NCBI GenBank assembly: GCA_020051845.1
Contig: JAGVQG010000059.1
Coordinates: 1-34,461, forward strand
Reading direction: 5' to 3'
DNA length: 34,461 nucleotides
Source: an archaeon
GTDB lineage: Archaea > Nanobdellota > Nanobdellia > Woesearchaeales > ARS49
The number at the start of each line of letters is the position of its first letter. Positions within the stretch are counted from its first letter, which is position 1. Position numbers and translations under genes: made by a program. The notes under the pieces were generated by a model that was given only the letters and a program-made list of their open reading frames with translations, was not told the DNA's origin and did no database searches. This document shows positions 5,317 to 24,883 of this stretch, one piece after another.

Positions 5317-6036
5317 ATGAAGCTCGCTCCTGGCATCGAGGCATTGGGTCTTGGCATACACATCCCGGAACACAAAGCCGTCGTCTTCGCGGATCTTCAT
5401 CTCGGGATCGAGGAGTCGATGCGGCGCGGTGGGGTTCTCGTTCCAAGGCAGCATTTCAAGGATGTTCTGCATAGGATCGGTCGCATTCTGAAGAGGACAA
5501 AAGGCGTCAAGACAGTCATCCTGAACGGTGATCTCAAGCATGAGTTCGGCAGGATCAATGATCAGGAGTGGCGTGAGGTCAAGCGGCTTTTCGACGTTTT
5601 CGCGAAAGACGGGAAGGAAGTCATTATCGTCAAAGGCAACCACGACGTGATGCTGAAGCCGATCGCGGACGACCGGAACATCAAGGTCGTGGATGAATTC
5701 GTGATGGGTGATATCCTTGTCTCTCACGGCGACAGCAAGCCGAAAGACCTCAAAGGCATCAAGACGGTCATCATCGGCCACGAGCACCCGACTGTTTTCC
5801 TGAGGGAAAGAGCCAAGGCCGAGAAGTTCAAGTGTTTCCTTGTGACTAGCTACCGTTCCAAGACGTTGATTGTCCAGCCCTCTTTCGGTCCGCTTACGCA
5901 GGGCATCGACATCCTCAGGGGCGAGCTCCTGAGTCCGCTGTTGGGATCGAATGTGAGACGCGGCAAGGTCTTTGTCGTGGACGAGGAGTCTGATGCCGTT
6001 TTGGATTTCGGTAAAGTGTCTGATCTGGCGCGTTGA
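5317..6036 (+). CDS. Archaeal metallophosphoesterase (SbcD-related family)
   Basis: A 239-residue calcineurin-like phosphoesterase of the archaeal family related to SbcD/Mre11. All five metal motifs are visible: DLHLG (D26, H28), GDLKHEFG (D72), KGNHD (N108, H109), SHGD (H137) and GHEHP (H155, H157). The substrate is not established for the family; a phosphodiesterase or nucleotide phosphatase acting on nucleic acid or a nucleotide is likely. In many archaea members of this family sit beside large helicases, but here the gene stands alone, with its own TATA box and probably no leader. A strict SbcD exonuclease is excluded by the short length and absence of an SbcC partner. Confidence 0.9.
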   Translation: MKLAPGIEALGLGIHIPEHKAVVFADLHLGIEESMRRGGVLVPRQHFKDVLHRIGRILKRTKGVKTVILNGDLKHEFGRINDQEWREVKRLFDVFAKDGKEVIIVKGNHDVMLKPIADDRNIKVVDEFVMGDILVSHGDSKPKDLKGIKTVIIGHEHPTVFLRERAKAEKFKCFLVTSYRSKTLIVQPSFGPLTQGIDILRGELLSPLLGSNVRRGKVFVVDEESDAVLDFGKVSDLAR

Positions 6037-7981: not shown

Positions 7982-8917
7982 ATGAAACGAAAGGTCATCC
8001 AAATCGCGGAATCCACGCAGCTTGTCTCTCTTCCACGTTCCTGGTCGAAGCTTAATAATGTGAAGAAGGGCGACGAGGTCGAGGTCGAGGAGAAGGGTTC
8101 TCGTCTTGTGATCAGCACCCAGCTGGGTGACAGCACAGAACGCGCCGAATTCGACCTTCGTGGCCTTGAGGTGATGTCATCCAGGTTCATCCACGCCCTT
8201 TATAAACGAGGCGTCGACGAATTGAAGCTCACCTTCGACAGGCCTGATACTCTTGAGATGGTGAAGAATGCCCTTGGCAAGGAGACCGTCGGCTATGAGA
8301 TCACCGATCAGACCAAGACATCATGCACGATCCACAATGTTTCAGGCGAGCTCGAGGAATTCGACTCGATCCTGCGCCGCACTTTCCTGATGCTGAATTC
8401 GCTCGCCCGCGACACCTATACTGAACTCAATGAGGGTGACTTCAAGCATTGCGCCAACGTCGCGCTGCTCGAGGAGGCGAACAACAGGTTCACGACTTCA
8501 TTGCGCCGTCTGCTCAACAAGCGCGGCTCTGACCGTTACGACAAGATAGGGCCGATATACTACATCATAGAGTCGCTCGAGAACCTTGCCGACCAGTACA
8601 AGTATCTCTGCCAGTATATGGCGAAACATGACAAGGTCAAGCTGCATGCTGATTCGCTGTCCATGCTTAATGACGCGAACGCGATGGTCGAGATGTACTA
8701 TCATCTGTTCTACAAGTTCGACAAGGACGCGCTTGAGAGGATAGGCAAAGGCCGCAAGGACATGGTCAAGAGGTTCTACAGGATAATCGAGAACGCCGAT
8801 GGCCAGTACGCGAAGATCGACGTCGTCCTGGCGCACCACTCATTGAACATCGCCCAGAAGACGTTCTGTCTGACAGGGCCCTATCTTGTGCTTTCTGTCA
8901 AGGGACCGCAGACCTGA
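7982..8917 (+). CDS. Archaeal PhoU-type regulator with N-terminal AbrB domain
   Basis: A 311-residue protein. Residues 1-48 are an AbrB-type DNA-binding hairpin (KRKVIQIAESTQLVSLPRSWSKLNNVKKGDEVEVEEKGSRLVIST) and the rest is the helical PhoU domain, with the expected acidic helix patterns in two repeats (about 110-200 and 210-300). The fusion is a known archaeal form annotated as phosphate uptake regulator; it is thought to act as a transcription regulator sensing phosphate status or metals. No pst transporter genes are next to it. Its TGA is directly followed by the stop of the convergent DHH gene, with no spacer. Confidence 0.9.
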   Translation: MKRKVIQIAESTQLVSLPRSWSKLNNVKKGDEVEVEEKGSRLVISTQLGDSTERAEFDLRGLEVMSSRFIHALYKRGVDELKLTFDRPDTLEMVKNALGKETVGYEITDQTKTSCTIHNVSGELEEFDSILRRTFLMLNSLARDTYTELNEGDFKHCANVALLEEANNRFTTSLRRLLNKRGSDRYDKIGPIYYIIESLENLADQYKYLCQYMAKHDKVKLHADSLSMLNDANAMVEMYYHLFYKFDKDALERIGKGRKDMVKRFYRIIENADGQYAKIDVVLAHHSLNIAQKTFCLTGPYLVLSVKGPQT

Positions 8918-10282
8918 TCAGCGCTTGTTCATTGTGATGTCCAGGTATTCCTGGATCCGCTGCGCCAGTCCGCTCGCTTCGGTCTCAAGGACGATGCCTG
9001 CTCCGCGCTCGTCGTGGCAGTTTTCACCGAGCGGCATGAATTCCCTCACGAGATCGCAGACACGTGGGGCGCTGGGAATGGTGCTCTTGTCCTTCGGGGT
9101 TATGCGATCGCGCAGCTCTTCAGTGGCTCGCACAGAGACCTTCAGGCGCGGCTTGAGGTCTTTGAACGCCGGCACTTTCTCCCCGAGTATGATGATGTCT
9201 CGGACAGGCATTGCCGCAAGGACATAGGCGCAGTCGGGTATGAATTGCGTGCGTCTCGGATTATGCTCTGCGTGGTCGATCATGTAATGGGCGAAGTCGC
9301 CTATGATCTTCAATCCCAGGTCGCTGAAGGCTTCGCCGACATTGAAGTAGATGGTGTTGGCGGTCGCGTGGGATGGTGTTTTGTGTTCCAGTAATTTATC
9401 ACGTTCTGCCTCGAACCGTTCTTGCATCTTGCATTCGAGGTTGCGGAGCAGATGGCTGACGCCAGTGCTTTGCTGCATGGTGTTATTGCCTATCACTATG
9501 TTTCCGGTCTTGCCGGCGCCCATATGGAGTACTTGCAGGCCGAGCTCGGGTCCGCTGTCCATGTAATTGACGCATCCAACTGAAGTCAGGTCGTGCGCCA
9601 ACTTTGCCGCGTTGCGGACCTCGCCGTCGGCGAGCCGCACTAGGTAGCGCCGGTGTGGCTTCGGGTTGTTGAAATTGTACGAGAAGTCGTCCTTCTCGAC
9701 ATCAGCCATGCAAAGCGCGTCGATGCCGTTCGGTATGAATTGGCCCCCGCCGCGCCGGTGGTTACCATCACCTATGGCTCCGACAAGGAACAGGTGTGAT
9801 CGGGTTTGCACGTTCGGATTTATGTGTCGCGCGAGCAGGTATGTTATGGTGCTTGCCGAGGCAAGGCGTTCGCCGTCTACGCCCCAGCAATTGCTGTTGA
9901 GGCAGCGGAAGTTTCTCGGAAGGGTTGTCTCCAGGCAGGGTTTTGATGTCTGGTGGTGGTCGATCACTATCGTCGGGCGGTCGCCTGCTATGCGCGCTAT
10001 CATCTTCTCATGCCCGCCGCCGTGGTCCGTGAATATCACGGGGCCTGTCGTGCGCCTATACACATGTTCGATCACGTTCTCGAAAGGACGTTCAAGGAAG
10101 ATGCGATTCACTTTGGAACCCATGTGGCTGGCTATCAAGTCGATGCCGTATGCCGAGACTAGCCCGTCCGCGTCCACGTCGGAAAGGTGCACGAGTTCCT
10201 TGCCGGCATATCTTTTCAGGAATTCTCCTGCCTCGTTGATGGCTTTCGTGAACGGGAAGAGGTCGACTATGTAGGGATTCAT
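8918..10282 (-). CDS. DHH/DHHA1 phosphoesterase (archaeal RecJ-like)
   Basis: A 454-residue cytoplasmic phosphoesterase with the DHH-family motifs in order: DVDADG (35-40), TDHG (85-88), the signature DHH (108-110), VGAIGDGNHRR (about residue 175) and a C-terminal DHHA1-like HDERGAGIVL in place of the usual GGHxxAAG. Family members are Mn-dependent nucleases (RecJ, archaeal GAN), oligoribonucleases or cyclic-dinucleotide phosphodiesterases; motifs alone do not decide between these. Its ATG overlaps the stop of the 783-residue kinase-like gene (ATGA), so the two are translated together and probably work together. Convergent with and touching the PhoU-like gene. Confidence 0.88.
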   Translation of the reverse strand: MNPYIVDLFPFTKAINEAGEFLKRYAGKELVHLSDVDADGLVSAYGIDLIASHMGSKVNRIFLERPFENVIEHVYRRTTGPVIFTDHGGGHEKMIARIAGDRPTIVIDHHQTSKPCLETTLPRNFRCLNSNCWGVDGERLASASTITYLLARHINPNVQTRSHLFLVGAIGDGNHRRGGGQFIPNGIDALCMADVEKDDFSYNFNNPKPHRRYLVRLADGEVRNAAKLAHDLTSVGCVNYMDSGPELGLQVLHMGAGKTGNIVIGNNTMQQSTGVSHLLRNLECKMQERFEAERDKLLEHKTPSHATANTIYFNVGEAFSDLGLKIIGDFAHYMIDHAEHNPRRTQFIPDCAYVLAAMPVRDIIILGEKVPAFKDLKPRLKVSVRATEELRDRITPKDKSTIPSAPRVCDLVREFMPLGENCHDERGAGIVLETEASGLAQRIQEYLDITMNKR

Positions 10283-12630
10283 GGTCGCGCCTCGCTGTTT
10301 CGCGTGAGTTCTTTCGGCAGCGTGGTCATCAGCTGCACTGACATGGCTGCGAGGTAGTCGAGGCGTAACATGTGCAGCTCGTTCTTCGCCTCGTCCATGT
10401 GTTCGACGCTGTCCGCTCCTGTGATTTGCTGGTTTTCATCGCCTATGGCGACGAATCTGTCGAATATGCGCTCGATCTGCAATTCTGATGCCGGCGTGTA
10501 GCCGATCATCTTGTAGTAGCGCGGCAGATTGTCGCTCTTATTCGCTTCATCGAAGCATCGTTTCCGCATCCTGTCCAATGGCATGAGGCTCATCTGCACG
10601 CTATGATGCATCATCGAAGACACCCGTTTCGGGTTTGTGTTATTGATGTATATCGTCACGGCAAGGTCCGCGTCGCGCAGCGAGCGGTAGTACCACATCC
10701 AGTCGAAGTGGGTCGTGTATTTGTTTGGGTCGCGGCCGCCGTTTTTCTTTATGAACTTCTTCGCGTCTTCTTCAGGACCGTTCAAAAGGAATGAGAACAA
10801 TCCTTGTTCTTTTGGCTGGGCAGCGTCCAGGACGTCGACTACGGCCAATGCCTGTTGCAGCAGTTTATTCTGGCCTGTGCTGAATTCTTTGCGCATGAAT
10901 GGGTTGCAGCCTGGTGAGTTTGCCGATACCGTGTCGTACACGAGGTACTTGAGCAGGTTGTACTGGAACACTCTTTGGATGTGTTCGCTTCGGGCTTCAG
11001 GGTCGTCTATGTGCGAACCGAACCGGTTGTCTGCGTCGAGAAGGTACTGGTACAGGTCCTCGCCAAGCAGAGCCAGGCGGTCGCCGAAGTCGTAGTGGTG
11101 CAGTTTCTCGTCGAGTTGCGCGTCGATGCGTCCTTTGACGAGTTGTCTTGTGCTGTCTTTCCTGTCGCCCTTGTTCAGCTCCGAACGCACGTCACGGTCG
11201 ACCGCGCGCATTATGCGGTGGTAGATGTCCTCGAGTTCGGTCCTGCCGGGCACGAGCCTGTAGTCTCGTCTTATGGTCATGTTCGCGGGCACGTTGTCCC
11301 TGTGGCAAACGATGGTGTCGTTGTCTATGATCAGTGTCCTGTCCATGGCCGTGGTCTCATCGAATGGGTCCATGGCGCGCAGCGCTTCGTGGATTCCTTT
11401 ATCGTGGCGTTTCAACGCGGGTTTGGATCTCCATCCCGGTGTCGCGGTCGCCAGCAGGTGTTCTAGCGCGTTCGCCGCGCGTTGGGCGTAAAGGCTTGCC
11501 ATGTGGTGTTCGCGGTGTTCATTGTTTTCTCTGTGGATAAGGGAGAAGATGTTCTGCGCGTTACGTTCGTAGACCGTGAGGTCCTGCAGCACTTTTTGCA
11601 TCGTGCGTTCGCAGTACAGGTCGTTGAAATCACGGAGGTGCGGCGCAGTGTCCTTCGCGTCCTGCATCTCGTTGCGTTCGCGCAGTATCATGCGGGGCGT
11701 TGGGCCGTGTATGGTTTCACAAACTATGACTGTTCTGTTGCTGTCGATCGGGATTATGGGGTATCGGTTCTTGCGCGAGTCCGGCCCTGGCACCTTCAAT
11801 ATGCCACGTCGGCCTATCTCGGTGTACAGGAGTGCGAGGTGTTCAGCACCCTGCTGCGTGCGGTGCCTCATGAAGATGTCGCGGAACGGCTGTCTGATGC
11901 TCTCTCCGCCTTGCTCCGTGACTTGGTCCTTGAAGCTGACCCTTCCGTCATTCTCGTCAGCCGGCTTTTCGTCATAGAAATTCCGCATCCACGTGCTTGC
12001 GTAGTGCTGGCAGCGTTTCATCTCCTTCTTGAGTTTCTCGGCGAGTGCATGTGGGATGTCAGCCGCCTTTGACAGCTTCTCGGCTATGTCTGCCGCCCTT
12101 GCGTCCATGGTTAGCGCAAGCGATGCGAGTTGCCAGCCTTCGAATATCTCATGCACTCCATATTTGTCGACATCCTCTCCTGCGCTGGCCATCGTGCTGA
12201 CGCGCCGGTTGCGCGCCACGGCTATGGCTTTGGTCAGGGCGGGCTTGAAGTCCTTCTGCAGGTATGATTTTCGAGAGCTTATGTATTCAAGGTCGAATGA
12301 TTCGCGCAAGGCGTTGGCAAGCGGCAAAGATTCCGCATTTCCGAGCAGGTCGTCGAGAGTGCGTTCCTGGCCTAGGAGTATTAGGGGTGGATGTTCTTCT
12401 GGTCGCGCCTCTGAAAGTATGTTGATCAACGGCTGGGCCGGGGATCCTCTTGTGTTGATCAGGTAGAGTTCTCGGTTGTGTCCTAGTTCTTTTCTCAGCA
12501 ACGCTAGATTGTGGGCCGTGACTATCGATATGTCGGGTATCTGTAGAACTATCTCGGTTATGGCTTCCATCCTGCGACGGGCCATAGTCGGGTCGTAGAG
12601 CACGATGTTTACTAGTGGTTCCCTGGCCAT
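10279..12630 (-). CDS. Large kinase-like protein with HRD and DFG motifs
   Basis: A 783-residue soluble protein. Residues about 230-525 resemble a protein-kinase/aminoglycoside-phosphotransferase fold: a Gly-containing stretch (TEQGGESIRQPFRD, 238-251), an alpha-C-like helix (GAEHLALLYTEI), a hinge (VIVCETIHGPT, 301-311), a catalytic loop CHRDNVPANM (His443, Asp445, Asn450) and YDFGDRLALLGEDLYQ (Asp514-Gly516). The N-terminal 140 residues look like an alternating alpha/beta domain (VNIVLYDPTMARRR, ELYLINTRGSP, PPLILLGQE), faintly receiver-like. The C-terminal 250 residues carry FDWMWYYRSLRDADLAVTI and LRMLRLDYLAAM-type helices shared with the paralogue at 13115-15445. A beta-3 lysine is not obvious. 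It overlaps the DHH gene by 4 nt. Function unknown. Confidence 0.75.
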   Translation of the reverse strand: MAREPLVNIVLYDPTMARRRMEAITEIVLQIPDISIVTAHNLALLRKELGHNRELYLINTRGSPAQPLINILSEARPEEHPPLILLGQERTLDDLLGNAESLPLANALRESFDLEYISSRKSYLQKDFKPALTKAIAVARNRRVSTMASAGEDVDKYGVHEIFEGWQLASLALTMDARAADIAEKLSKAADIPHALAEKLKKEMKRCQHYASTWMRNFYDEKPADENDGRVSFKDQVTEQGGESIRQPFRDIFMRHRTQQGAEHLALLYTEIGRRGILKVPGPDSRKNRYPIIPIDSNRTVIVCETIHGPTPRMILRERNEMQDAKDTAPHLRDFNDLYCERTMQKVLQDLTVYERNAQNIFSLIHRENNEHREHHMASLYAQRAANALEHLLATATPGWRSKPALKRHDKGIHEALRAMDPFDETTAMDRTLIIDNDTIVCHRDNVPANMTIRRDYRLVPGRTELEDIYHRIMRAVDRDVRSELNKGDRKDSTRQLVKGRIDAQLDEKLHHYDFGDRLALLGEDLYQYLLDADNRFGSHIDDPEARSEHIQRVFQYNLLKYLVYDTVSANSPGCNPFMRKEFSTGQNKLLQQALAVVDVLDAAQPKEQGLFSFLLNGPEEDAKKFIKKNGGRDPNKYTTHFDWMWYYRSLRDADLAVTIYINNTNPKRVSSMMHHSVQMSLMPLDRMRKRCFDEANKSDNLPRYYKMIGYTPASELQIERIFDRFVAIGDENQQITGADSVEHMDEAKNELHMLRLDYLAAMSVQLMTTLPKELTRNSEARP

Positions 12631-12656
12631 TTCTCCCCGACGTAGTTATGCACGGG

Positions 12657-13034
12657 CTATTTATAAAGCTTTGCCTCTGGTGTTATTGGTGGGTGGTGAC
12701 AATTACCTTGCGGGCAGGATGATTTCATCACGTTCATCACGGCTTCGCAGCACCTGTATGATGGCACGGTGTCTACATATTGGAAAGCGGTCTGCTCTCC
12801 TGTTCCATGGACGACTATCGCACCGATCCTCTTCAGTTCGGCGATCGTGCACCTGACAAGCCCTTCTTGATGTTGGTCAAGGTCAAGTCCTCGTGTCAAT
12901 TCAGAAAGAGTCAGTGGTTTGTGTGATTTTGAGTAGAGCAGCTCGAATACTTGCACTGGCAAGGGCTTCTCTTGGCCCTGCTTTTGTCCTGTTCCCAGAA
13001 GTCTTGTGATGTATGTGGTGATGTTTGCAATCAC
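12657..13034 (-). CDS. Winged-helix-like protein with Cys-rich tail
   Basis: A 125-residue protein starting at a GTG (13034) chosen because AAGGAGTG sits 7 bases before it and the TATA box (13072-13079) would start transcription inside any longer frame. Residues about 25-95 (QVFELLYSKSHKPLTLSELTRGLDLDQHQEGLVRCTIAELKRIGAIVVHGTGEQTAFQY) look like a winged helix: helix, helix, recognition helix, then two strands. The tail has CC, then C and C-H-H in MNVMKSSCPQGNCHHPP, a possible metal site. It lies between the two kinase-like genes on the same strand and is a candidate regulator of them. Its last four codons double as the TATA box of the gene that follows. Confidence 0.7.
   Translation of the reverse strand: MIANITTYITRLLGTGQKQGQEKPLPVQVFELLYSKSHKPLTLSELTRGLDLDQHQEGLVRCTIAELKRIGAIVVHGTGEQTAFQYVDTVPSYRCCEAVMNVMKSSCPQGNCHHPPITPEAKLYK
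12660..12667 (-). promoter_or_regulatory. TATA box of the 783-residue kinase-like gene
   Basis: TTTATAAA, 30 bases before the ATG at 12630, lies within the final codons (Leu-Tyr-Lys) of the winged-helix gene, whose stop codon abuts it. Upstream translation and this promoter share the same bases. Confidence 0.65.
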
Positions 13035-13071
13035 GGTCTTCACTCCTTGACGGTATGGGTTTAAGGGTCCT

Positions 13072-13079
13072 TTTAAATA
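13072..13079 (-). promoter_or_regulatory. TATA box of the winged-helix gene
   Basis: TATTTAAA on the minus strand, 38 bases before the GTG start. This leaves a leader of about 14 nt that holds the AAGGAG site. Confidence 0.6.
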
Positions 13080-13114
13080 GTTTTTGCATGTCGACTTCAT
13101 TAACACCTGTCGGG

Positions 13115-15445
13115 TTATGGTGCGGGAAGGTGCGCCAGCAGGTGCTGCGACAGCGCGGCGAGGTAGTCGAGACGCATCATGTGGCGTTCGGCGATGCTTC
13201 GGGCATTCCTCTGCGGCTCGGGCAGGTCGTGTAGAAGAGCGAATGTCTTTGTGGTGTCAAGCCGCTCAACAGGCACGAAGCTCTCGTACCCTGGAATGCG
13301 GATATCATGCTTGACCATCTCCTGCTGGAAGCGCTTGCGCATGCGCTCGAGCGGCAAAGTGCCGCAGCGCACGAAGTGCCGCACCATGGGCGCGATTAAT
13401 TCCTTGGCTGTGTTCTTCGACAGCACCGTGAGCGCGATGTCGGCTTCCCGCATCGCGCGGCAGTACCACATCCAGTCGAGATGGTAGGCATGCTTGTCGA
13501 TGTCGAAGCCGTTGTTGGCCAAGAGATAGTCGCGGACCTCCTTGCCCTTAAGCCGCCAATCATTATTGAGGCCGTGCTCGCCTGTGAACGCGGCATCTCC
13601 GAGGGTAGTGTTAAGGAGGTAGATTCCAGTGTTCATCGGAAACTTGGTGCCGGGTGGAATGGGTTTGTTCTCGGTCTGCGCAAGGAGAAGGGTGCGCCCC
13701 TCCTTGCGTGTCGCCAGGTCATAATCAACGAAAACGCCGCGTCCCTCCTTGCCTATCATCGTTTCGTATATGAGGTAGTGATAAAGTCCACATTCCATCG
13801 CGTCCAAGACGGCCTTGTCCCACTCGGCGCCTTTGGTCTTGTACCAGGGCCAGTCAGGGTCGAGCATGAGCTGATAGAAATCCTCGCCGCGTAGGGCGAG
13901 ACGTTGGCCGAAATCGATATGTGTGGTTTGGTTTTCAAGCATCCTTTCAATCATGAGTGATTCGGGCTCATCGCATGCGGTGTTTTCAACGATGCCCTCA
14001 AAGGGCCTTGATTCACGTCTATGAAGTTTTGTGTCGCCGGTGAGATGCTTGACGATGGATGCGTCAGGGAGCGACTCGCCGTCCGAGAGGGATGCATGTT
14101 TCAGGATGACGTTGGAGGGGGAGCAATCCCTGTGCAACGTCATGAACATGGTGCCGAAGTTGATGGCGCGTCTGTTTCCAAAACCGCGGACCGGCACGAA
14201 CGTATACCGACCATCAGCGGCCTTAATGGCATCGCTGTAATCCGCGCAGGTGTTCGGGATGCGCGCCAGCAAATGGCACAACGCATCAGAGGTCCTGCCG
14301 ATGGAGGTCTGATACAGGCGATCGACGCAGGCCTCGTCGTTTTCCATGACATCGTCCATGGGCACGACCTTCGGCGCGATATGTTCATAGAGAGCCAAAT
14401 CATGGAGCAACTTCGGCAACAGGCGTCTTCGCATTTCCCTGTATACCTCGGCGACATAGCTGAGCGCGGGATCATCAGTCTTGAAATCGTCGGGCGGCCC
14501 CTCCTCTCGCAGGAATTCCCGCACGGTCTGGCCGTGTACAAACTTCGTGATGAGCGCGGCATCCTTCTCCCCCACCTGGATAAGCGGGTACTTTTTTGTG
14601 TACGGTTCTGGTTCAGGCACATGGAGACCGAAATCCGCTCCGTTCAGCTTCGCGTAGATTCCGGCAAGGAACTCGGCATCGTCTTTATTCCGTAGCTGGA
14701 CGAAAACGTCACGGAAGCGGATGCCGCCGCCCTGGGTGACCTGCGTCTGGAACGGCACCTTGCCGGAAGTGTGCCCTGCCGGGGATTTTTCATATGCCCT
14801 TTTCATGAGCAGGCTCGCCCATCGTTCACAGCGTTTCTTGTCGGTGTCGAACGAGAGATCGCCCTGCTTCTGTTGGTAGTTGGCGATGTCATCGGCGCGC
14901 GTCCACATGCTCAACGCCATGTCGGAGATCTGGCCCGCGTCCAGGAACGCTATCAAAGGATGGGTGCGGTCCTGATCCGCGTTGTTTTCTACATCCCGCA
15001 AGGCCCTTTCGAAATCCATTTGCCGGATGGCGGGTCGGTCGTGCATGGCGCGTGATAGGAATGTGATGTGATATTGCGCATGGAGGGATGCGTAGAGCGC
15101 GTTTGCGTCCATGAAATGCTCTTCAATGTCGCGATTGGCAAACTTGATCCAGATATCATGCAGGGCCTTATCGAGGGAATCACCATGGCCGAAGAGCAGC
15201 AGTTGCGGCCAATTGAGTTGGGGTGTTTCTCCTATCCTGCTGATCAGGGTGTAGGTCAGGCGGTTTATCTCCAGGCAGTACGCGTCATGGGTGTCGTTCT
15301 CGATGCCATGAAGCGTGCGCGCGTCATCGTCTGTCTGATCGAGCTCTATGTTTCTGTTGGAATCCGCCGCGGATAGAAGCGCTTCCAAGCATCCTTTTTC
15401 CATCCTGGTGTGCGTAAGGATATGCGCAGCTTTGTCGACGGCCAT
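13115..15445 (-). CDS. Second large kinase-like protein, paralogue of 10279-12630
   Basis: A 776-residue protein with the same overall plan as the 783-residue neighbour: QVTQGGGIRFRDVFVQLR (235-252, Gly-rich loop and strand), DAEFLAGIYAKL helix, LITKFVHGQTVREFLREE hinge region (298-315), LHRDCSPSNVIL (His438, Asp440, Asn445) and HIDFGQRLALRGEDFYQLMLD (Asp511-Gly513). The C-terminal part shares LDWMWYCRAMREADIALTV and MRLDYLAALSQHLL with the paralogue. The expected beta-3 lysine appears to be Gln or Arg here. The start at 15445 is chosen because TATA box 15468-15475 lies 23 bases upstream; a longer frame begins with TTG at 15511. Not in an operon overlap; 80 bases from the winged-helix gene. 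Confidence 0.75.
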   Translation of the reverse strand: MAVDKAAHILTHTRMEKGCLEALLSAADSNRNIELDQTDDDARTLHGIENDTHDAYCLEINRLTYTLISRIGETPQLNWPQLLLFGHGDSLDKALHDIWIKFANRDIEEHFMDANALYASLHAQYHITFLSRAMHDRPAIRQMDFERALRDVENNADQDRTHPLIAFLDAGQISDMALSMWTRADDIANYQQKQGDLSFDTDKKRCERWASLLMKRAYEKSPAGHTSGKVPFQTQVTQGGGIRFRDVFVQLRNKDDAEFLAGIYAKLNGADFGLHVPEPEPYTKKYPLIQVGEKDAALITKFVHGQTVREFLREEGPPDDFKTDDPALSYVAEVYREMRRRLLPKLLHDLALYEHIAPKVVPMDDVMENDEACVDRLYQTSIGRTSDALCHLLARIPNTCADYSDAIKAADGRYTFVPVRGFGNRRAINFGTMFMTLHRDCSPSNVILKHASLSDGESLPDASIVKHLTGDTKLHRRESRPFEGIVENTACDEPESLMIERMLENQTTHIDFGQRLALRGEDFYQLMLDPDWPWYKTKGAEWDKAVLDAMECGLYHYLIYETMIGKEGRGVFVDYDLATRKEGRTLLLAQTENKPIPPGTKFPMNTGIYLLNTTLGDAAFTGEHGLNNDWRLKGKEVRDYLLANNGFDIDKHAYHLDWMWYCRAMREADIALTVLSKNTAKELIAPMVRHFVRCGTLPLERMRKRFQQEMVKHDIRIPGYESFVPVERLDTTKTFALLHDLPEPQRNARSIAERHMMRLDYLAALSQHLLAHLPAP

Positions 15446-15467
15446 GGGTGTGAGCACGCTTCGCGCT

Positions 15468-15475
15468 CTTATAAA
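15468..15475 (-). promoter_or_regulatory. TATA box of the second kinase-like gene
   Basis: TTTATAAG on the minus strand, ending 23 bases before the ATG at 15445. It sets the start and implies a leaderless mRNA. Confidence 0.65.
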
Positions 15476-15556
15476 CCTTCTGAATGAAACACCATCGAAA
15501 AGTGGTGACAATTAATGGTGATGTGCTGTGCCCTGTCCGTCCCCTGCCCACGAACA

Positions 15557-15565: not shown

Positions 15566-15587
15566 GCGCCTTTCTTCCCGCAAGAAC

Positions 15588-17081
15588 ATGTCAAAGGAAG
15601 AGGAACTGGTGGCTGAGAGGATGCGCAAGAGGGAGGAGCTTCTCAGCCAGGGCAATCCGTATCCGTACGGTTACAAGCAGACGCATCACGCCAAGGAATT
15701 GCAGGACAGGCATGCCGGTAGCGGACCTGACAAGCAGCTGGGCGAACACGTGCGCGTCGCGGGAAGATTGATCGCCATGCGCCGCATGGGCAAGATGGCC
15801 TTCGGCCAGATCCTTGATGAGACAGGCAAGATACAGCTCTGGTTCAAGGCAGACAGCCTTCAATCCTACGACAATCTCAAGCTGGTCGACATCGGTGACA
15901 TCATCGGTGTCGAAGGCGATCTTATCACCACGAAGACCGGCGAGCTCACTGTGTCGGTCAAGGGCTATGACATGCTCTGCAAGTCATTACACCCATTGCC
16001 TGACAAGTGGCACGGGCTCAAGGACATGGAGCTGCGCTACCGCCAGCGCTATGTCGACCTTATAGTCAATCCGGAGGTCAAGGATGTCTTCCGCAAACGC
16101 GCGCGCATATTGCATTCTGTGCGAAGTTATCTGGACGGCAATGGCTTCCTCGAGGTGGAGACCCCTGTGCTCCAGCCGATCTACGGCGGAGCGGCGGCCA
16201 AGCCCTTCACCACGATGCACAACGAGCTGAAGATGAAGATGTACCTCAAGATCTCACCCGAGCTATACCTCAAGCGTCTGCTCGTCGGCGGTTTCGAGAA
16301 GGTCTACGACATGAATAAGAATTTCCGCAACGAGGGCATCGACACCACCCATAATCCTGAGTTCACGATGGTCGAGATATACCAGGCCTACGCGGACTAC
16401 ACGGACATGATGCGTGTGACAGAGGAGATCTATGAATCCGCTGCCAAGGCCGCGAACGGCACGACGAAGATAGTATGGGATGGCAAGGATCTTGATCTCA
16501 AGGCGCCGTGGCAGCGCGTCGCGATGAAGACCGCGATCAGGCAGCACGCGGATATCGACGTCGATGCGCTCAGCGACAATGAGCTGTTCGAACTGCGCAC
16601 GACCTACAACCTCAATATCAAGGGTGAAATCACGCGCGGTGCGATGATAGCTGCGCTGTTCGACGAACTCGCGGCGCCCAAGCTCGTCGGCCCTGTCCAC
16701 ATCATAGACCATCCGAAGGAGACCACTCCTCTTTGCAAGATCCACCGCAAGGACCCGTCGCTTATCGAACGCTTCGAGAGCTACATCTGCGGCATGGAGG
16801 TCAGCAACGCGTACTCAGAGCTGAACGATCCTGTCGTGCAGCGCCAATTGCTCGAGGAGCAGGCCGCCCTGCTTCGCGGCGGAAGTGAGGATTCCCATCC
16901 GATGGACGACGATTTCATCCGCAGCCTCGAGTATGGCATGCCTCCTGCAGGTGGCCTTGGGCTTGGCATCGACCGCATGGTGATGTTCATCACAGGCCAG
17001 GTCAGCATCAGGGACGTGATATTGTTCCCGACGATGAAACCTGAAACATCGCATGGCGATGTTTCTGGTTCGCGAACGTAG
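15588..17081 (+). CDS. lysS: Lysyl-tRNA synthetase, class II
   Basis: Charges tRNA-Lys with lysine using ATP. The 497-residue protein has the class II plan: an N-terminal OB-fold anticodon-binding domain (HVRVAGRLIAMRRMGKMAFGQILDETGKIQLW, about 50-90) and the catalytic core with motif 1 (FLEVETPVLQPIYGGAAAKPF), motif 2 (FRNEGIDTTHNPEFTMVE) and motif 3 (GLGLGIDRMVMF). Many archaea use the unrelated class I enzyme, so the class II type is worth noting. The family normally ends near FPTMKPE; here about 11 extra residues (TSHGDVSGSRT) are encoded by a perfect hairpin, the first of a palindrome cluster after the gene. Confidence 0.97.
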   Translation: MSKEEELVAERMRKREELLSQGNPYPYGYKQTHHAKELQDRHAGSGPDKQLGEHVRVAGRLIAMRRMGKMAFGQILDETGKIQLWFKADSLQSYDNLKLVDIGDIIGVEGDLITTKTGELTVSVKGYDMLCKSLHPLPDKWHGLKDMELRYRQRYVDLIVNPEVKDVFRKRARILHSVRSYLDGNGFLEVETPVLQPIYGGAAAKPFTTMHNELKMKMYLKISPELYLKRLLVGGFEKVYDMNKNFRNEGIDTTHNPEFTMVEIYQAYADYTDMMRVTEEIYESAAKAANGTTKIVWDGKDLDLKAPWQRVAMKTAIRQHADIDVDALSDNELFELRTTYNLNIKGEITRGAMIAALFDELAAPKLVGPVHIIDHPKETTPLCKIHRKDPSLIERFESYICGMEVSNAYSELNDPVVQRQLLEEQAALLRGGSEDSHPMDDDFIRSLEYGMPPAGGLGLGIDRMVMFITGQVSIRDVILFPTMKPETSHGDVSGSRT

Positions 17082-17255: not shown

Positions 17256-18317
17256 ATGGCGACGATAAACGGTCCTCTGGCGAGCGTTCAGGCAGTATAC
17301 GGCCGGCCGCTCAAGCCGCAAGATATCAGGATCAACCTGGATTATTTGAATAGGCAGGATTTCCTCGATCTTGACGCACGTATTGATATGATCTATCGGG
17401 AGGCGTTGGGAAATTTGGGCATAACACCCACCAATCCGATCAACCTGACGACAGACGCCGCGAAGCGCGTCCGCGAACACATGATTGGCATGAGGTCATG
17501 GCAGGAAGCGTATATGCGGGCTATGACCTATAGTGACGTCACGCCATCACACCGTCTTGAGCGTCAGATGGAGGCTATCTCAAATCCTTGGTCCAGCGAG
17601 ACGGCGGCGAACTTCACAAGCGTGCGTGATGAGGGCGGCAAGCTTGTCATCGATGTCAAGCTCGCTCATTTTTTCGCGACGCAGCTCAACAGGGCTGCCT
17701 TGTTGCCTGACAAACAGCTTGATAGCGCTTCTGTCTACGTGATCACCGAATTGTCGGTTGAGGGTGGCAAGCCGAGCGCGGTCTATCTTGGCACGCGCGG
17801 AGGCAGGACTTATGTGGGTGGGAAGACCGTCGTCGGCTCTGGCGGCGTGCGGCTCATGAAGCATCAAGACAGGTTCACCGTCGATCCGTTCGTGAACGCG
17901 GAAGCCGAGGTCCAGGAGGAGACTGGCATGAAACCGTCGGATTACGTCCTGCAGGGTATAATCGGCAGGTTCTGGGACGAGGGCATATCGCGCAACACGA
18001 ATCTGGTATTCCTCGCTACGACGCGTCACGACGAGTACACGCTGCGTCGCAAGTGGGAGATGAACGGCCACGCTGACAAGCGTGAACACCAGGGCCTCGA
18101 GTTCCCGTCGTTGCGTGTATTGCCGAGACTTGTCAAGGATCAGGCGACACTGAGCCACGAGCGTCCTGACTCGAGGCGGGTATATGATCCTAACCGGCCG
18201 CTGCTAGCTCCAGCCACAGGCGCGCTGCTGACATACATGAAGTGGAATGGTATGTTGGCGTCGGATAGTGAAGGCGTGCTGGAAAGCCTTTCAGGGAATT
18301 ATGAAGTTCTAAGTTAA
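17256..18317 (+). CDS. Nudix-like hydrolase domain protein
   Basis: A 353-residue soluble protein. The second half holds a recognisable part of a Nudix box, NAEAEVQEETGMKPSD (Glu218, Glu221, Glu222, Gly224), preceded by a Gly-rich GGRTYVGGKTVVGSGG stretch and followed by strands (VFLATTRHDEYTLRR). The usual REUxEExGU reads AEVQEETGM, so the Arg is Ala and the first half of the box is poorly conserved. Nudix enzymes cleave nucleoside diphosphates linked to other groups; the substrate cannot be told. The N-terminal 120 residues are helical and unassigned. It has its own promoter and ends 13 bases from the convergent SRP54 gene. Confidence 0.7.
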   Translation: MATINGPLASVQAVYGRPLKPQDIRINLDYLNRQDFLDLDARIDMIYREALGNLGITPTNPINLTTDAAKRVREHMIGMRSWQEAYMRAMTYSDVTPSHRLERQMEAISNPWSSETAANFTSVRDEGGKLVIDVKLAHFFATQLNRAALLPDKQLDSASVYVITELSVEGGKPSAVYLGTRGGRTYVGGKTVVGSGGVRLMKHQDRFTVDPFVNAEAEVQEETGMKPSDYVLQGIIGRFWDEGISRNTNLVFLATTRHDEYTLRRKWEMNGHADKREHQGLEFPSLRVLPRLVKDQATLSHERPDSRRVYDPNRPLLAPATGALLTYMKWNGMLASDSEGVLESLSGNYEVLS

Positions 18318-20587: not shown

Positions 20588-21226
20588 ATGGAATTGACCT
20601 GGTTCGGCCACGCGAGCGTCCGCATCGTCACCAAAGAGGGGGTCGTCATCTACATCGATCCTTTCGCCGGTGATGAGGGCTGGTATGACAAGCAGGCTGA
20701 CCTGGTGCTTGTCACGCACAATGATTATGATCATCTTAAGGAGTCGTTGATGCACAAGTTGATCGGCGATGATTGCGTGATCCTGGGTCCTTCTGCCGTG
20801 CGCACCCATCACCAGGAGGTCAAGCCGGTCTGGCCCAATGAGTCGCACGAGATCAAGGGTGTCAAGATCAAGGTCGTTGACGCCTATGCTATTGGTAAGA
20901 AGGTGCATCCCAAGGGCGAGGGTGTTGGCTACGTCCTGGAGTTCGACGGAACTTCGGTCTATGTCGCCGGTGACACTGATTTCATCCCGGAGATGCGGAA
21001 GATCCGCGCTGACATTGTGGTGTTGCCTGTCGGCGGCACGTTCACGATGTCTGCGAAGGAAGCCGCTGAGGTGGTGCTTGGCATGAAGCCGAAGCACGCG
21101 ATCCCCTACCACTGGGGTTCTATCGTCGGCCATCTGGACGACGCCGAGAATTTCAAGGATATAGTCGACAGCGCAGGGCTGACGACGGTCCATATAATGC
21201 ATCCTGATCAGACGGTCCAACTATGA
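20588..21226 (+). CDS. Metallo-beta-lactamase-fold hydrolase (UPF0173/UlaG-like)
   Basis: A 212-residue MBL-fold enzyme. It opens with the family's strand MELTWFGHASVRI, then IDPFAG, the metal motif THNDYDHL (H-x-D-x-D-H instead of the usual HxHxDH), VAGDTDF, VLPVGGTFTMSAKEAA and a C-terminal YHWGSIVGHLDD. These match the short metal-dependent hydrolases of the UPF0173/UlaG group, which have no signal peptide and uncertain substrates. The stop overlaps the DUF1385 start by 4 bases, so it heads a translationally coupled three-gene operon. Confidence 0.9.
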   Translation: MELTWFGHASVRIVTKEGVVIYIDPFAGDEGWYDKQADLVLVTHNDYDHLKESLMHKLIGDDCVILGPSAVRTHHQEVKPVWPNESHEIKGVKIKVVDAYAIGKKVHPKGEGVGYVLEFDGTSVYVAGDTDFIPEMRKIRADIVVLPVGGTFTMSAKEAAEVVLGMKPKHAIPYHWGSIVGHLDDAENFKDIVDSAGLTTVHIMHPDQTVQL

Positions 21227-22071
21227 AAACGCAATACGTGGGCGGGCAGGCGATCATCGAGGGTGTTATGATGAAGGGGCCTGGTGGCATTGCCGCTGCC
21301 GTGCGCAAGCCGAATGGTTCGATAGCAGTGAAGAAGATGGTGAACAAGAGCATCACGCGCTTCTTCCCTTTCGGCCTTCCATTCATCCGTGGCATGATTT
21401 TCCTTTTTGAGATGCTGATCGTCGGCATCGATGCGTTGGCGTGGAGCGCGAACCAGCAGGTCAGCAAGAAGGAGGCCATTTCTGGCGGCGAGTTGGCTTT
21501 GACCATGTTGGTATCTCTGGCCATCGCCATAGGCTTGTTCCTTGCATTGCCCTATGCGGCAGCATGGTTGGCCTTGGGCCACAATCCTGGGAGCGTGCTG
21601 TTCAATCTGCTCGAGGGTGTTGTCAGGCTTGTCCTTTTCCTGTTGTACATATTCCTTATCGGCCTTGCGCCTGATGTGAAGCGGCTTTACCAGTATCATG
21701 GCGCTGAGCACGCCGCAGTCAACTGCCACGAGCACGGCAAGCAGTTGACAGTGGAGAACGCCATGCGTTTCTCGACTGTCCACATCCGTTGCGGAACAAG
21801 CTTGCTGATATACGTGCTCGCGATAAGCATAGTTGTCTTCTCGCTCCTTAACACTGGTGTTTGGTACTACAATGTGCTGCTGCGGCTTCTTGTGGTGCCG
21901 CTTATCGGTGGCATCGGCTACGAGCTGTTGCGCCTTAGCGCGCGTTTCAAGGATAATCCTGTGTTCTGGCTGCTCACCTTGCCGGGCAGGCTTACGCAGC
22001 GCATTACCACACAACGGCCTGATGCCGAACAGGTCGAGGTAGCGATTGTCGCGCTGAAGAAGGCGCTATGA
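21223..22071 (+). CDS. DUF1385 (YqhQ-like) membrane protein
   Basis: A 282-residue membrane protein of the DUF1385 family. The start VGGQAIIEGVMMKGP, the later YQYHGAEHAAVNCHEHG and the STVHIRCGTS motif are the family hallmarks; the His, Glu and Cys residues suggest a metal centre facing the cytoplasm. Hydrophobic segments lie at about 45-70, 90-115, 120-145, 190-210 and 215-235. The biochemical role of the family is not established. It overlaps both the MBL gene before it and a 54-residue membrane protein after it by ATGA, so the three products are made together. Confidence 0.92.
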   Translation: MKTQYVGGQAIIEGVMMKGPGGIAAAVRKPNGSIAVKKMVNKSITRFFPFGLPFIRGMIFLFEMLIVGIDALAWSANQQVSKKEAISGGELALTMLVSLAIAIGLFLALPYAAAWLALGHNPGSVLFNLLEGVVRLVLFLLYIFLIGLAPDVKRLYQYHGAEHAAVNCHEHGKQLTVENAMRFSTVHIRCGTSLLIYVLAISIVVFSLLNTGVWYYNVLLRLLVVPLIGGIGYELLRLSARFKDNPVFWLLTLPGRLTQRITTQRPDAEQVEVAIVALKKAL

Positions 22072-23241: not shown

Positions 23242-23748
23242 CTAGCTGAACCAGCTCATTATCGTCAGGAAGATCTTCGCCATGCCGGTCTTGACTGTGG
23301 ATGCGACCGTCCTTGGAGTGTAGGTTATCTCGCCGTTGTCCAGCGCCTGCTTGAGCTGGCTTGCCTGGTCATTTGATCCTGCGATGTCGTTGATGGTCTT
23401 CTCGCTGACGCGCATGTCCATGGTGTAAGCATCGAAGCTTCCGCGGGTGATTGTCGTTATCAGGCCGTTCTCGGTCTCGATGCTCACGTGGTCGAGGTTT
23501 CCGTTGTCGCGCGTCACCGTCACATTGAGTCTCTCGTTCCCGAATATGGTCTTGACGAAGCTAGGAACGCGTTCGATGTTGTTGTTGTAGAGGTCCCTTG
23601 ACGTGTCCAGGTTTCCCAGTGCCTGTTCTGCGTTGCTTATCTCTGCGACCACCATGCCTGTGGGTGAGAACTTGTAGTTTTCTGAGACGAAAAGGAACAG
23701 TCCGGCTATCATCAGTATCGAGAAAAGATGGAATGGCCTTAGTTTCAT
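23242..23748 (-). CDS. Membrane-anchored exported protein, unknown function
   Basis: A 168-residue protein with an N-terminal hydrophobic anchor (MKLRPFHLFSILMIAGLFLFVSENY) and an outside domain with beta strands (RLNVTVTRDNGNLDHVSIETENGLITTITRGSFDAYTMDMRVSEKTI) and a helical end. The SPTGMVVAEI segment after the anchor is a pattern common to archaeal exported proteins. No family is recognised. The ATG at 23748 is chosen because a TTTTATATA box at 23781-23789 would start transcription after any longer frame begins. Divergent from mnmA, whose TATA box lies in the same 90-base gap. Confidence 0.65.
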   Translation of the reverse strand: MKLRPFHLFSILMIAGLFLFVSENYKFSPTGMVVAEISNAEQALGNLDTSRDLYNNNIERVPSFVKTIFGNERLNVTVTRDNGNLDHVSIETENGLITTITRGSFDAYTMDMRVSEKTINDIAGSNDQASQLKQALDNGEITYTPRTVASTVKTGMAKIFLTIMSWFS

Positions 23749-23806
23749 GTTCTCACCGGTCTTGGAAGCGGTGTTGGTTGTATATAAAACCTTCAGCGCA
23801 GCTATG

Positions 23807-23814
23807 TTTTTATT
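23807..23814 (+). promoter_or_regulatory. TATA box of mnmA
   Basis: TTTTTATT ends 23 bases before the ATG at 23837 and excludes the upstream frame extension to 23747. Confidence 0.55.
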
Positions 23815-23836
23815 CAGATGGCCTTCCCAGCAGGAT

Positions 23837-24883
23837 ATGAAGATCGCAGTCCTTCTATCGGGCGGTGTCGACAGTTCAGTGGCGCTCGCCATGCTAAAGG
23901 AGCAGGGCCATGATTGCACCGCGTTCTACCTGAAGATATGGCTCGAGGACGAGCTGGCGTCTCTTGGCAGCTGCCCCTGGGAAGAGGATCTGTCCTACGC
24001 GCAGAAGGTGTGCGACCTGTTGAAGGTGCCGTTGAAGGTCGTCAATCTCCAGAAGGAGTATTGGGATAGGGTGGTGGCATATGTCATCGCAGAGGTCAGG
24101 GCAGGAAGGACGCCGAATCCTGATATGCTGTGCAACGAGCGCGTGAAGTTCGGCGCTTTCTATGATAGTATCGACTCGAGCTTTGACAAGGTCGCGACAG
24201 GTCATTATGCGGATGTCGAAGGATCTGGCGGGATTTTCAGGCTCTGCCGCGTGCCTGATCCTGTCAAGGACCAGACCTATTTCCTGGCGGGTCTTTCACA
24301 GGTCCAGTTGTCGCGCGCGTTGTTCCCGATAGGCAGGATGCTGAAGAAAGAGGTGCGCGACCTGGCGAAGATGCTGGACTTGCCCAACAAGGACCGCAAG
24401 GACTCGCAGGGCATATGTTTCCTCGGAAAGATAGACTATGATGAGTTCATCAGACGGCATCTCGGCGAGAAAGAGGGGGACCTTGTCGATGTCGACACAG
24501 GGAAGGTCGTCGGAAAACATAAGGGTTTCTGGTTCTACACAGCAGGCCAGCGTCATGGTATTCCTTTGCACGCTGGTCCTTGGTATGTCATGAACAAAGA
24601 TGCGGACAAGAACATAGTATACATCTCGAACAAGTACAAGAAGGAGAAGGTGCGTGACAGGTTCGTTGTCGGAGAGGTGCGTTGGATCGCGGGCTCTCCG
24701 CCGTCGGATGGTCTTCTCGTCAAATTACGTCATGGCCCCAACCTTTACGCTTGTGTATTGACTGCCCGGACCGATGGTCGTTTCGACGTCGTCATCGACG
24801 GCAACGACCAGGGCATAGCTCCTGGCCAGTTCGCGGTTTTCTATGATGGGAAGTATTGCTACGGCTGCGGGGTCATCATCTAA
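23837..24883 (+). CDS. mnmA: tRNA 2-thiouridylase MnmA
   Basis: Adds sulfur to U34 of tRNAs for Lys, Glu and Gln. The 348-residue protein has the PP-loop SGGVDSS (8-14) for ATP, the nucleophile Cys99 in NPDMLCNERVKF, the second cysteine Cys194 in DSQGICFLG, the KDQTYFLAGLS motif and the C-terminal tRNA-binding part (FWFYTAGQRHGIPL to the end). MnmA is the bacterial and mitochondrial route; most archaea instead use Ncs6/NcsA-type enzymes. It needs a sulfur donor, and no TusA or desulfurase gene is visible nearby. Single gene with its own promoter; the SDR promoter begins 8 bases after its stop. Confidence 0.96.
   Translation: MKIAVLLSGGVDSSVALAMLKEQGHDCTAFYLKIWLEDELASLGSCPWEEDLSYAQKVCDLLKVPLKVVNLQKEYWDRVVAYVIAEVRAGRTPNPDMLCNERVKFGAFYDSIDSSFDKVATGHYADVEGSGGIFRLCRVPDPVKDQTYFLAGLSQVQLSRALFPIGRMLKKEVRDLAKMLDLPNKDRKDSQGICFLGKIDYDEFIRRHLGEKEGDLVDVDTGKVVGKHKGFWFYTAGQRHGIPLHAGPWYVMNKDADKNIVYISNKYKKEKVRDRFVVGEVRWIAGSPPSDGLLVKLRHGPNLYACVLTARTDGRFDVVIDGNDQGIAPGQFAVFYDGKYCYGCGVII

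Follow-up and report, generated by a model that had tools for sequence, protein, structure and literature searches.

Gene Organization of the Locus

The window analyzed here, a stretch of 34,461 nucleotides (nt) that constitutes contig 21 of a 1.33-Mb Woesearchaeales genome (labeled G000), encodes two adjacent large kinase-like proteins, which we designate A and B. They belong to a single block of four closely spaced genes on the minus strand, in the order B, a small gene, A, and a gene for a DHH phosphoesterase. Based on its open reading frame (ORF), its motifs, and its paralogy with A, B (13115–15445) has 776 amino acids (aa) from the ATG at 15445, and its ORF reaches 15511 if an upstream TTG start is used (13115–15511); A (10279–12630), assigned on the same grounds, has 783 aa. 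The gaps are 8 nt between B and the small gene and 26 nt between the small gene and A, and A overlaps the last gene of the block, encoding the 454-aa DHH protein (8918–10282), by 4 nt (10279–10282). An original prediction, made from the sequence of the window, had proposed the pair of ~780-residue paralogs and this overlap, and both are present. It had also placed a winged-helix gene between A and B: The gene exists (12657–13106, 149 aa), whereas its listing as a probable winged-helix protein draws on its position and, for the fold, solely on a weak match to HTH_20 (E = 0.039).

The block (8918–15445) abuts a convergent plus-strand gene (7982–8917) such that the stop codon of the DHH gene directly meets that of its neighbor. 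The 311-aa product of this neighbor combines an AbrB/MazE domain (Pfam MazE_antitoxin, E = 2.1e-5) with a weakly matching PhoU domain (E = 0.077), and is referred to as AbrB–PhoU. On the other side, the block is bordered by a divergent gene for lysyl-tRNA synthetase (LysRS; 15585–17081, plus strand; Pfam tRNA-synt_2, E = 6e-91). The adjoining AbrB–PhoU gene, absent from the original prediction, is the most informative feature of the locus.

Sequence Features of the Kinase-Like Proteins and the DHH Phosphoesterase

A and B are 28% identical across 770 aa (E = 1e-63). The catalytic loop reads HRDNVPAN in A (residues 443–450; 11281–11304, minus strand), where profile comparison aligns it with kinase catalytic loops, and HRDCSPSN in B (residues 438–445; 14111–14134, minus strand). 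A DFG motif follows in each, in A at residues 514–516 (11083–11091, minus strand; then DRLALLGED) and in B at residues 511–513 (13907–13915, minus strand; then QRLALRGED), and the block HxDFGxRLALxGEDxYQ lies within the best-conserved 25-residue window of the two proteins (64%). With 100,000 shuffles of each protein, the strict pattern HRDxxPxN(30–110)DFG turned up once for A and never for B, and it is absent from 255 other ORFs; these motifs had been foreseen from the sequence, as had a further one, DWMWYxRxxRxADxA, common to both C-termini (DWMWYYRSLRDADLA in A; residues 643–657; 10660–10704, minus strand). Both proteins thus contain a D(x4)N catalytic loop plus a later metal-binding Asp (D445, N450, and D514 in A, with equivalents in B), and the hinge-like segments ETIHGPTPRMILRE and KFVHGQTVREFLRE were judged by eye to be compatible with APH-type kinases. 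Of the features of Hanks-type kinases they possess HRD and DFG, but not the Lys two residues past the Asp, the APE motif, or a Pfam match.

The DHH protein has intact motifs I–IV (DxDxDG, TDHGG, DHH, and GAxGD) and matches Pfam PF01368 above the curated cut-off (E = 1.7e-6). It also matches RecJ_archaeal (E = 2.7e-22 over residues 33–178), with the similarity confined to about residues 28–178 and far below the curated cut-off for that family; neither a DHHA1 nor a DHHA2 C-terminal domain was found in a Pfam scan.

Relatives in the Same Genomic Position

Relatives of A and B were sought in 57 related genomes, 371 genomes of the phylum, GTDB, and the viral contigs of IMG/VR, and these searches returned solely A and B themselves; low-scoring matches of a lax search (L028/L029) proved spurious. 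The genes bordering the block are far more widespread: AbrB–PhoU relatives occur in 26 of 26 genomes of the family, LysRS copies are 49–58% identical in most of them, and many of these other genomes have the two genes near each other on a single contig. The related genomes with this syntenic slot are metagenome-assembled genomes of Candidatus Woesearchaeota. In the 14 genomes of the same arrangement in which we read the slot, a single large gene convergent to AbrB–PhoU is present almost without exception; from one set of genomes to another, the encoded proteins resemble each other in sequence only slightly or not at all. Nine of the 14 are kinase-like with APH-type motifs, four are guanylate-kinase-like, and one is an amino-acid kinase. 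In the genome labeled G014 (L093), the arrangement differs and the large kinase-like gene was not seen there.

The nine kinase-like proteins fall into four sets. Set (i) comprises L090_5 and L104_3, together with the related L114_0 and L115_3, which lie beside AbrB–PhoU with LysRS elsewhere; a gene for an HAD phosphatase adjoins all four. Set (ii) (L094_2, L096_3, and L099_5) carries TPR repeats, weak in L096_3, with an HAD gene next to L094_2 and a PHP-like gene next to L099_5 (L099_4, assigned by eye and without a match in Pfam). Set (iii) consists of L091_4, which has TPR repeats and an adjoining PHP gene, and L092_1, and set (iv) of L097_4/L098_4; sets (ii)–(iv) owe the label kinase-like to D..N and DF motifs recognized by eye and to weak matches in profile comparisons, not to Pfam kinase matches. 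The remaining slots hold the guanylate-kinase-like P-loop proteins of set (v) (L100_5, L101_4, L102_4, and L103_3), some of them with receiver-like N-termini, and the amino-acid kinase of set (vi) (L095_3). A receiver-like N-terminus had been proposed by eye for A and B also; with the relatives' profile it did not score above shuffles, and the assignment is retained for the relatives alone (an N-terminal profile that includes A reaches response regulators at E = 3e-4, the relatives' profile without A at E = 0.015).

In place of a DHH protein, the slot relatives often have a phosphoesterase partner of the HAD (five loci) or PHP type. Because 4-nt overlaps occur in the window as well as in L090, L094, and L099, translational coupling of kinase and phosphoesterase is suggested.

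Predicted Fold of the Slot Relatives

An indication of the fold comes from set (i). L090_5 matches Pfam APH (PF01636) at E = 0.002, below the curated cut-off, and a profile search with the set finds only further members beside AbrB–PhoU. The four proteins were retrieved again from GTDB, and one was modeled on the four-sequence alignment (pLDDT 65.5, with low confidence in the N-terminal part). In a Foldseek search with this model, the top 21 PDB matches are APH-like kinases or kinase-fold enzymes with probabilities of 0.91–1.00 (1.00 for the top eleven), among them maltokinase, 25-hydroxysteroid kinase, glucosamine kinase, APH, and choline kinase. One slot relative is therefore predicted to adopt an APH/maltokinase-type fold.

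In hhalign, residues 298–456 of A align with set (i), and the stretch between hinge and HRDxxPxN stays in register (P = 0.008 in one pairwise comparison). A, B, and set (i) have in common the spacing of the catalytic Asp and Asn (D+5 = N), an ED pair follows at D+10/+11 in three of the four members of the set, and across the invariant D, N, D, and ED of set (i) the spacing in A and B equals that of three of its four members. In a search with a joint profile of A and B, calibrated on 178 real entries and an equal number of reversed ones, five of the six top matches were kinases or kinase-like slot proteins (L068_2, L126_5, L126_6, set (i), and L138_1), aligned by their catalytic loops to residues 440–456 of A; L118_2 is the sole exception.

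Linkage of Kinases and AbrB–PhoU across the Family

Pfam APH and Pkinase matches over the 26 genomes were compared with 112 AbrB–PhoU matches within 3 kb. Among the matches listed, 15 kinase hits are 3'-convergent to AbrB–PhoU, as against about 1.2 expected per orientation class under random kinase placement; the other orientations, likewise among the matches listed, account for four (same strand, 3'), eight (divergent, 5'), and zero (same strand, 5'). In the loci that we read, there is usually no gap between the convergent gene and the PhoU stop codon, the two being adjacent or overlapping, and the products have additional domains of various kinds, for instance TPR or apparent transmembrane segments. 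The source genome itself provides a further case, with tandem Hanks-type kinases (L126_5/L126_6; L126:3911–6223, contig 37 of G000) convergent to another AbrB–PhoU paralog. In the genome labeled G016 (L137), a PHP gene and two tandem APH-like kinase genes face an AbrB–PhoU gene, a plan equal to that of DHH, A, winged helix, and B in the window.

Six large proteins with APH-like motifs and apparent transmembrane segments are encoded tail to tail with AbrB–PhoU (L127:4329–7274, L131:5100–7484, L136:3061–5013, L178:293–2488, L180:2751–4370, and L184:3039–4853); from their sequences, they could possibly be membrane receptor kinases. The AbrB–PhoU genes of L124, L141, and L143 face runs of small genes (160–340 aa) that resemble pilin or secretion clusters rather than kinases.

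Beside another PhoU paralog of the source genome (contig C40), L128_0 shows collinear WM..R..R.A and LRxDYLxA motifs, a weak echo of the C-terminus of A and B. A hidden Markov model (HMM) comparison with A and B gives E = 6e-4, in a single comparison for which 4 of 3000 shuffles and two unrelated C-termini score equal or higher, and the first 36 residues of L128_0 are a sequence also present at other contig ends; as a third A/B-like paralog, it is only suggestive. Several of the ends of contigs C1, C40, C44, C50, and C51 of this genome carry an identical stretch of ~100 bases, which suggests an unassembled repeat.

Other Genes of the Window

A calcineurin-like phosphoesterase is encoded near the AbrB–PhoU gene (5317–6036, plus strand), and similar genes lie near AbrB–PhoU in L093, L100, and L114. 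Beyond LysRS, a 353-aa protein (17256–18317, plus strand) has a Nudix-like box, no match in Pfam, and a weak match to a PHROG nudix entry (E = 0.49). The contig further encodes a DUF1385 protein and an MnmA-type tRNA thiouridylase (21223–22071 and 23747–24883); both families are normally regarded as bacterial, and here they are found in an archaeal contig.

Interpretation of the Locus

The motifs, the gene order, the recurrent coupling of kinase and phosphoesterase genes, the predicted APH fold of a relative, and the linkage of kinases to AbrB–PhoU are computed features of these genomes. We read them as those of a cassette of kinase, phosphoesterase, and AbrB–PhoU regulator, in which A and B would be strongly diverged, atypical kinases of the APH branch that arose by tandem duplication (probability about 0.55). 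From this we infer that the two proteins share the APH fold, are active, and signal to AbrB–PhoU.

Several observations weigh against this reading. Neither A nor B has a significant match in Pfam, NCBIfam, PHROGs, or the PDB, and an AlphaFold2 model of A from the two available sequences (A and B) was unusable (pLDDT 36). HMM searches between A/B and set (i) were not significant in either direction, and it is for this reason that membership of A and B in the fold of the set (i) relatives is considered probable, not proven. Nor does position prove their homology, because five slots (sets v and vi) hold kinases of another fold; the case for homology is one of position and motif spacing, not of significant sequence scores. 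The receiver-like domain of the slot relatives is undetectable in either protein when the relatives' profile is compared with shuffles. Some AbrB–PhoU paralogs lack a kinase neighbor, one in the source genome facing a radical-SAM-like gene, and the linkage to AbrB–PhoU is genomic only. Finally, as had been noticed from the sequence, no beta-3 lysine is evident: None is conserved between the N-lobes of A and B, Arg257 of A being the invariant and nearest conserved basic residue to that position (Glu263 of A is also conserved).

This last point could be explained if A and B were kinase-fold pseudoenzymes, serving as nucleotide-sensing scaffolds to regulate the DHH enzyme or AbrB–PhoU without phosphotransfer, the more so as, in the VYK/LYR/IFR strand, a Lys is present in just one of the four set (i) relatives and is replaced by Arg in the other three. 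We nevertheless consider this unlikely, given that the catalytic Asp, the Asn, and the Asp of DFG, which are frequently lost in pseudokinases, are kept in both paralogs in or near their best-conserved block, and that the coupled phosphoesterase suggests turnover of phosphate. To a similarly low degree we would credit a module for small molecules, with A and B acting on a sugar, nucleoside, lipid, or choline-like metabolite, the DHH, HAD, or PHP protein serving as a metabolic or house-cleaning phosphatase, and PhoU being a mere neighbor. The nearest structures of the modeled relative are indeed metabolite kinases (maltokinase, glucosamine kinase, APH, and choline kinase), and DHH, HAD, and PHP enzymes act mostly on small phosphorylated molecules; yet metabolic enzymes do not typically reach 560–1000 aa, carry the TPR or receiver-like domains seen in the relatives, or diverge fast, and the linkage to AbrB–PhoU includes Hanks-type protein kinases too.

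The original prediction had left the choice between a signaling and a defense module. A hot spot of fast-changing kinase/nuclease cassettes directed against viruses, with the DHH protein as nuclease effector, would be in keeping with the extreme divergence within a fixed slot, with the substitution of unrelated kinase folds there, and with the RecJ-like similarity of the DHH protein; as A and B have no match in PADLOC or in viral contigs, the borders of the slot are housekeeping genes, and the partners in relatives are of the HAD type, we regard defense as improbable. It is the signaling part that finds support, together with the kinase-like core and its coupling to a phosphoesterase, in the detection of catalytic loops, the slot relatives, and the predicted APH fold of one of them. 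Slightly less credible still is that HRDxxPxN and DFG coincide by chance in proteins of another fold: The lack of any library or structure match and the unusable model of A would allow it, but the motif statistics, the detection of catalytic loops of real kinases, and a spacing also present in a family with a predicted APH fold speak for the kinase-like core that had been proposed.

If A and B are indeed kinases signaling to AbrB–PhoU, phosphotransfer, its substrate, and the direction of signaling may be envisaged as follows. The kinase, under the control of its own non-catalytic domains, would phosphorylate a partner, most probably either AbrB–PhoU itself or a small molecule sensed by this regulator. 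The phosphorylated product would be removed or broken down by the phosphoesterase translated together with the kinase, which is a DHH protein in the window and an HAD or PHP protein in relatives, and AbrB–PhoU would in turn change transcription. That there is a phosphorylated product in need of removal is suggested because the kinase is recurrently coupled to one of three unrelated phosphoesterase folds. More generally, and at odds that we would put somewhat short of even, Woesearchaeales may possess a cassette functionally comparable to two-component systems, in which AbrB–PhoU has a rapidly evolving kinase of its own, of APH, Hanks, or even unrelated fold, encoded tail to tail with it, together with a phosphoesterase that can be exchanged (HAD, PHP, or DHH), the A/B–DHH block being its most diverged version.

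To our knowledge, sensing and regulation are almost unknown in the DPANN archaea, which are small-genomed and mostly uncultured, and the slot offers a concrete hypothesis, from kinase to AbrB–PhoU. That unrelated kinase folds and phosphoesterases replace one another next to one kind of DNA-binding regulator points to phosphorylation as what is conserved, with the proteins being interchangeable; position and partner may also be a way to recognize kinases too diverged for profile libraries.

Comparison with Known Systems

The open-access literature on PhoU/AbrB and kinases in archaea, on atypical kinases of DPANN, and on signaling in Woesearchaeota yielded nothing describing such an arrangement, which appears to be undescribed, whereas the enzymes appear to be variants of known folds. 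With the APH family (PF01636; maltokinase 4u94/4o7o, glucosamine kinase 6hwj, and the choline kinase LicA 4r77), A and B share the DxxxxN loop, a second Asp past an insert, the absence of APE, and an APH-type hinge (VxGxT...L), and the slot relatives share a match to APH at E = 0.002 or an APH-like predicted fold. A and B depart from this family in several ways: They are ~780 aa long and are coupled to a phosphoesterase, they lack a conserved beta-3 lysine and a match in Pfam, their catalytic loop is separated from DFG by a long insert, and their C-terminal domain (DWMWY...RLDYLAA) is unique. HRD, Asn, and DFG are also found in the Hanks-type (eukaryotic-like) Ser/Thr kinases (PF00069), true members of which are convergent to other AbrB–PhoU genes, including the pair in the source genome; A and B lack the lysine of HRDxK, the APE motif, and a Pkinase match. 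The DHH protein resembles the DHH phosphoesterases and the archaeal RecJ-GAN (NF053576) in motifs I–IV, and differs in that its similarity is restricted to the segment described above and in that DHHA1 was not found.

A kinase gene beside a phosphatase gene, implying reversible phosphorylation, is known from bacterial pairs such as PpkA/PppA. The phosphatase partners in those pairs are of the PP2C type, whereas here they are DHH, HAD, or PHP proteins that are exchanged between relatives. The pairing of a DNA-binding domain with PhoU has a precedent in a predicted transcriptional regulator linked to a phosphate transport operon (PMC6267482); the AbrB–PhoU proteins described here are instead linked to diversified kinases. 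Two-component systems likewise pair a kinase with a DNA-binding regulator, and receiver-like N-termini occur in slot relatives, although not detectably in A and B; in place of a histidine kinase, however, the locus has proteins of an APH- or Ser/Thr-type fold, encoded convergently with the regulator and not in an operon with it.

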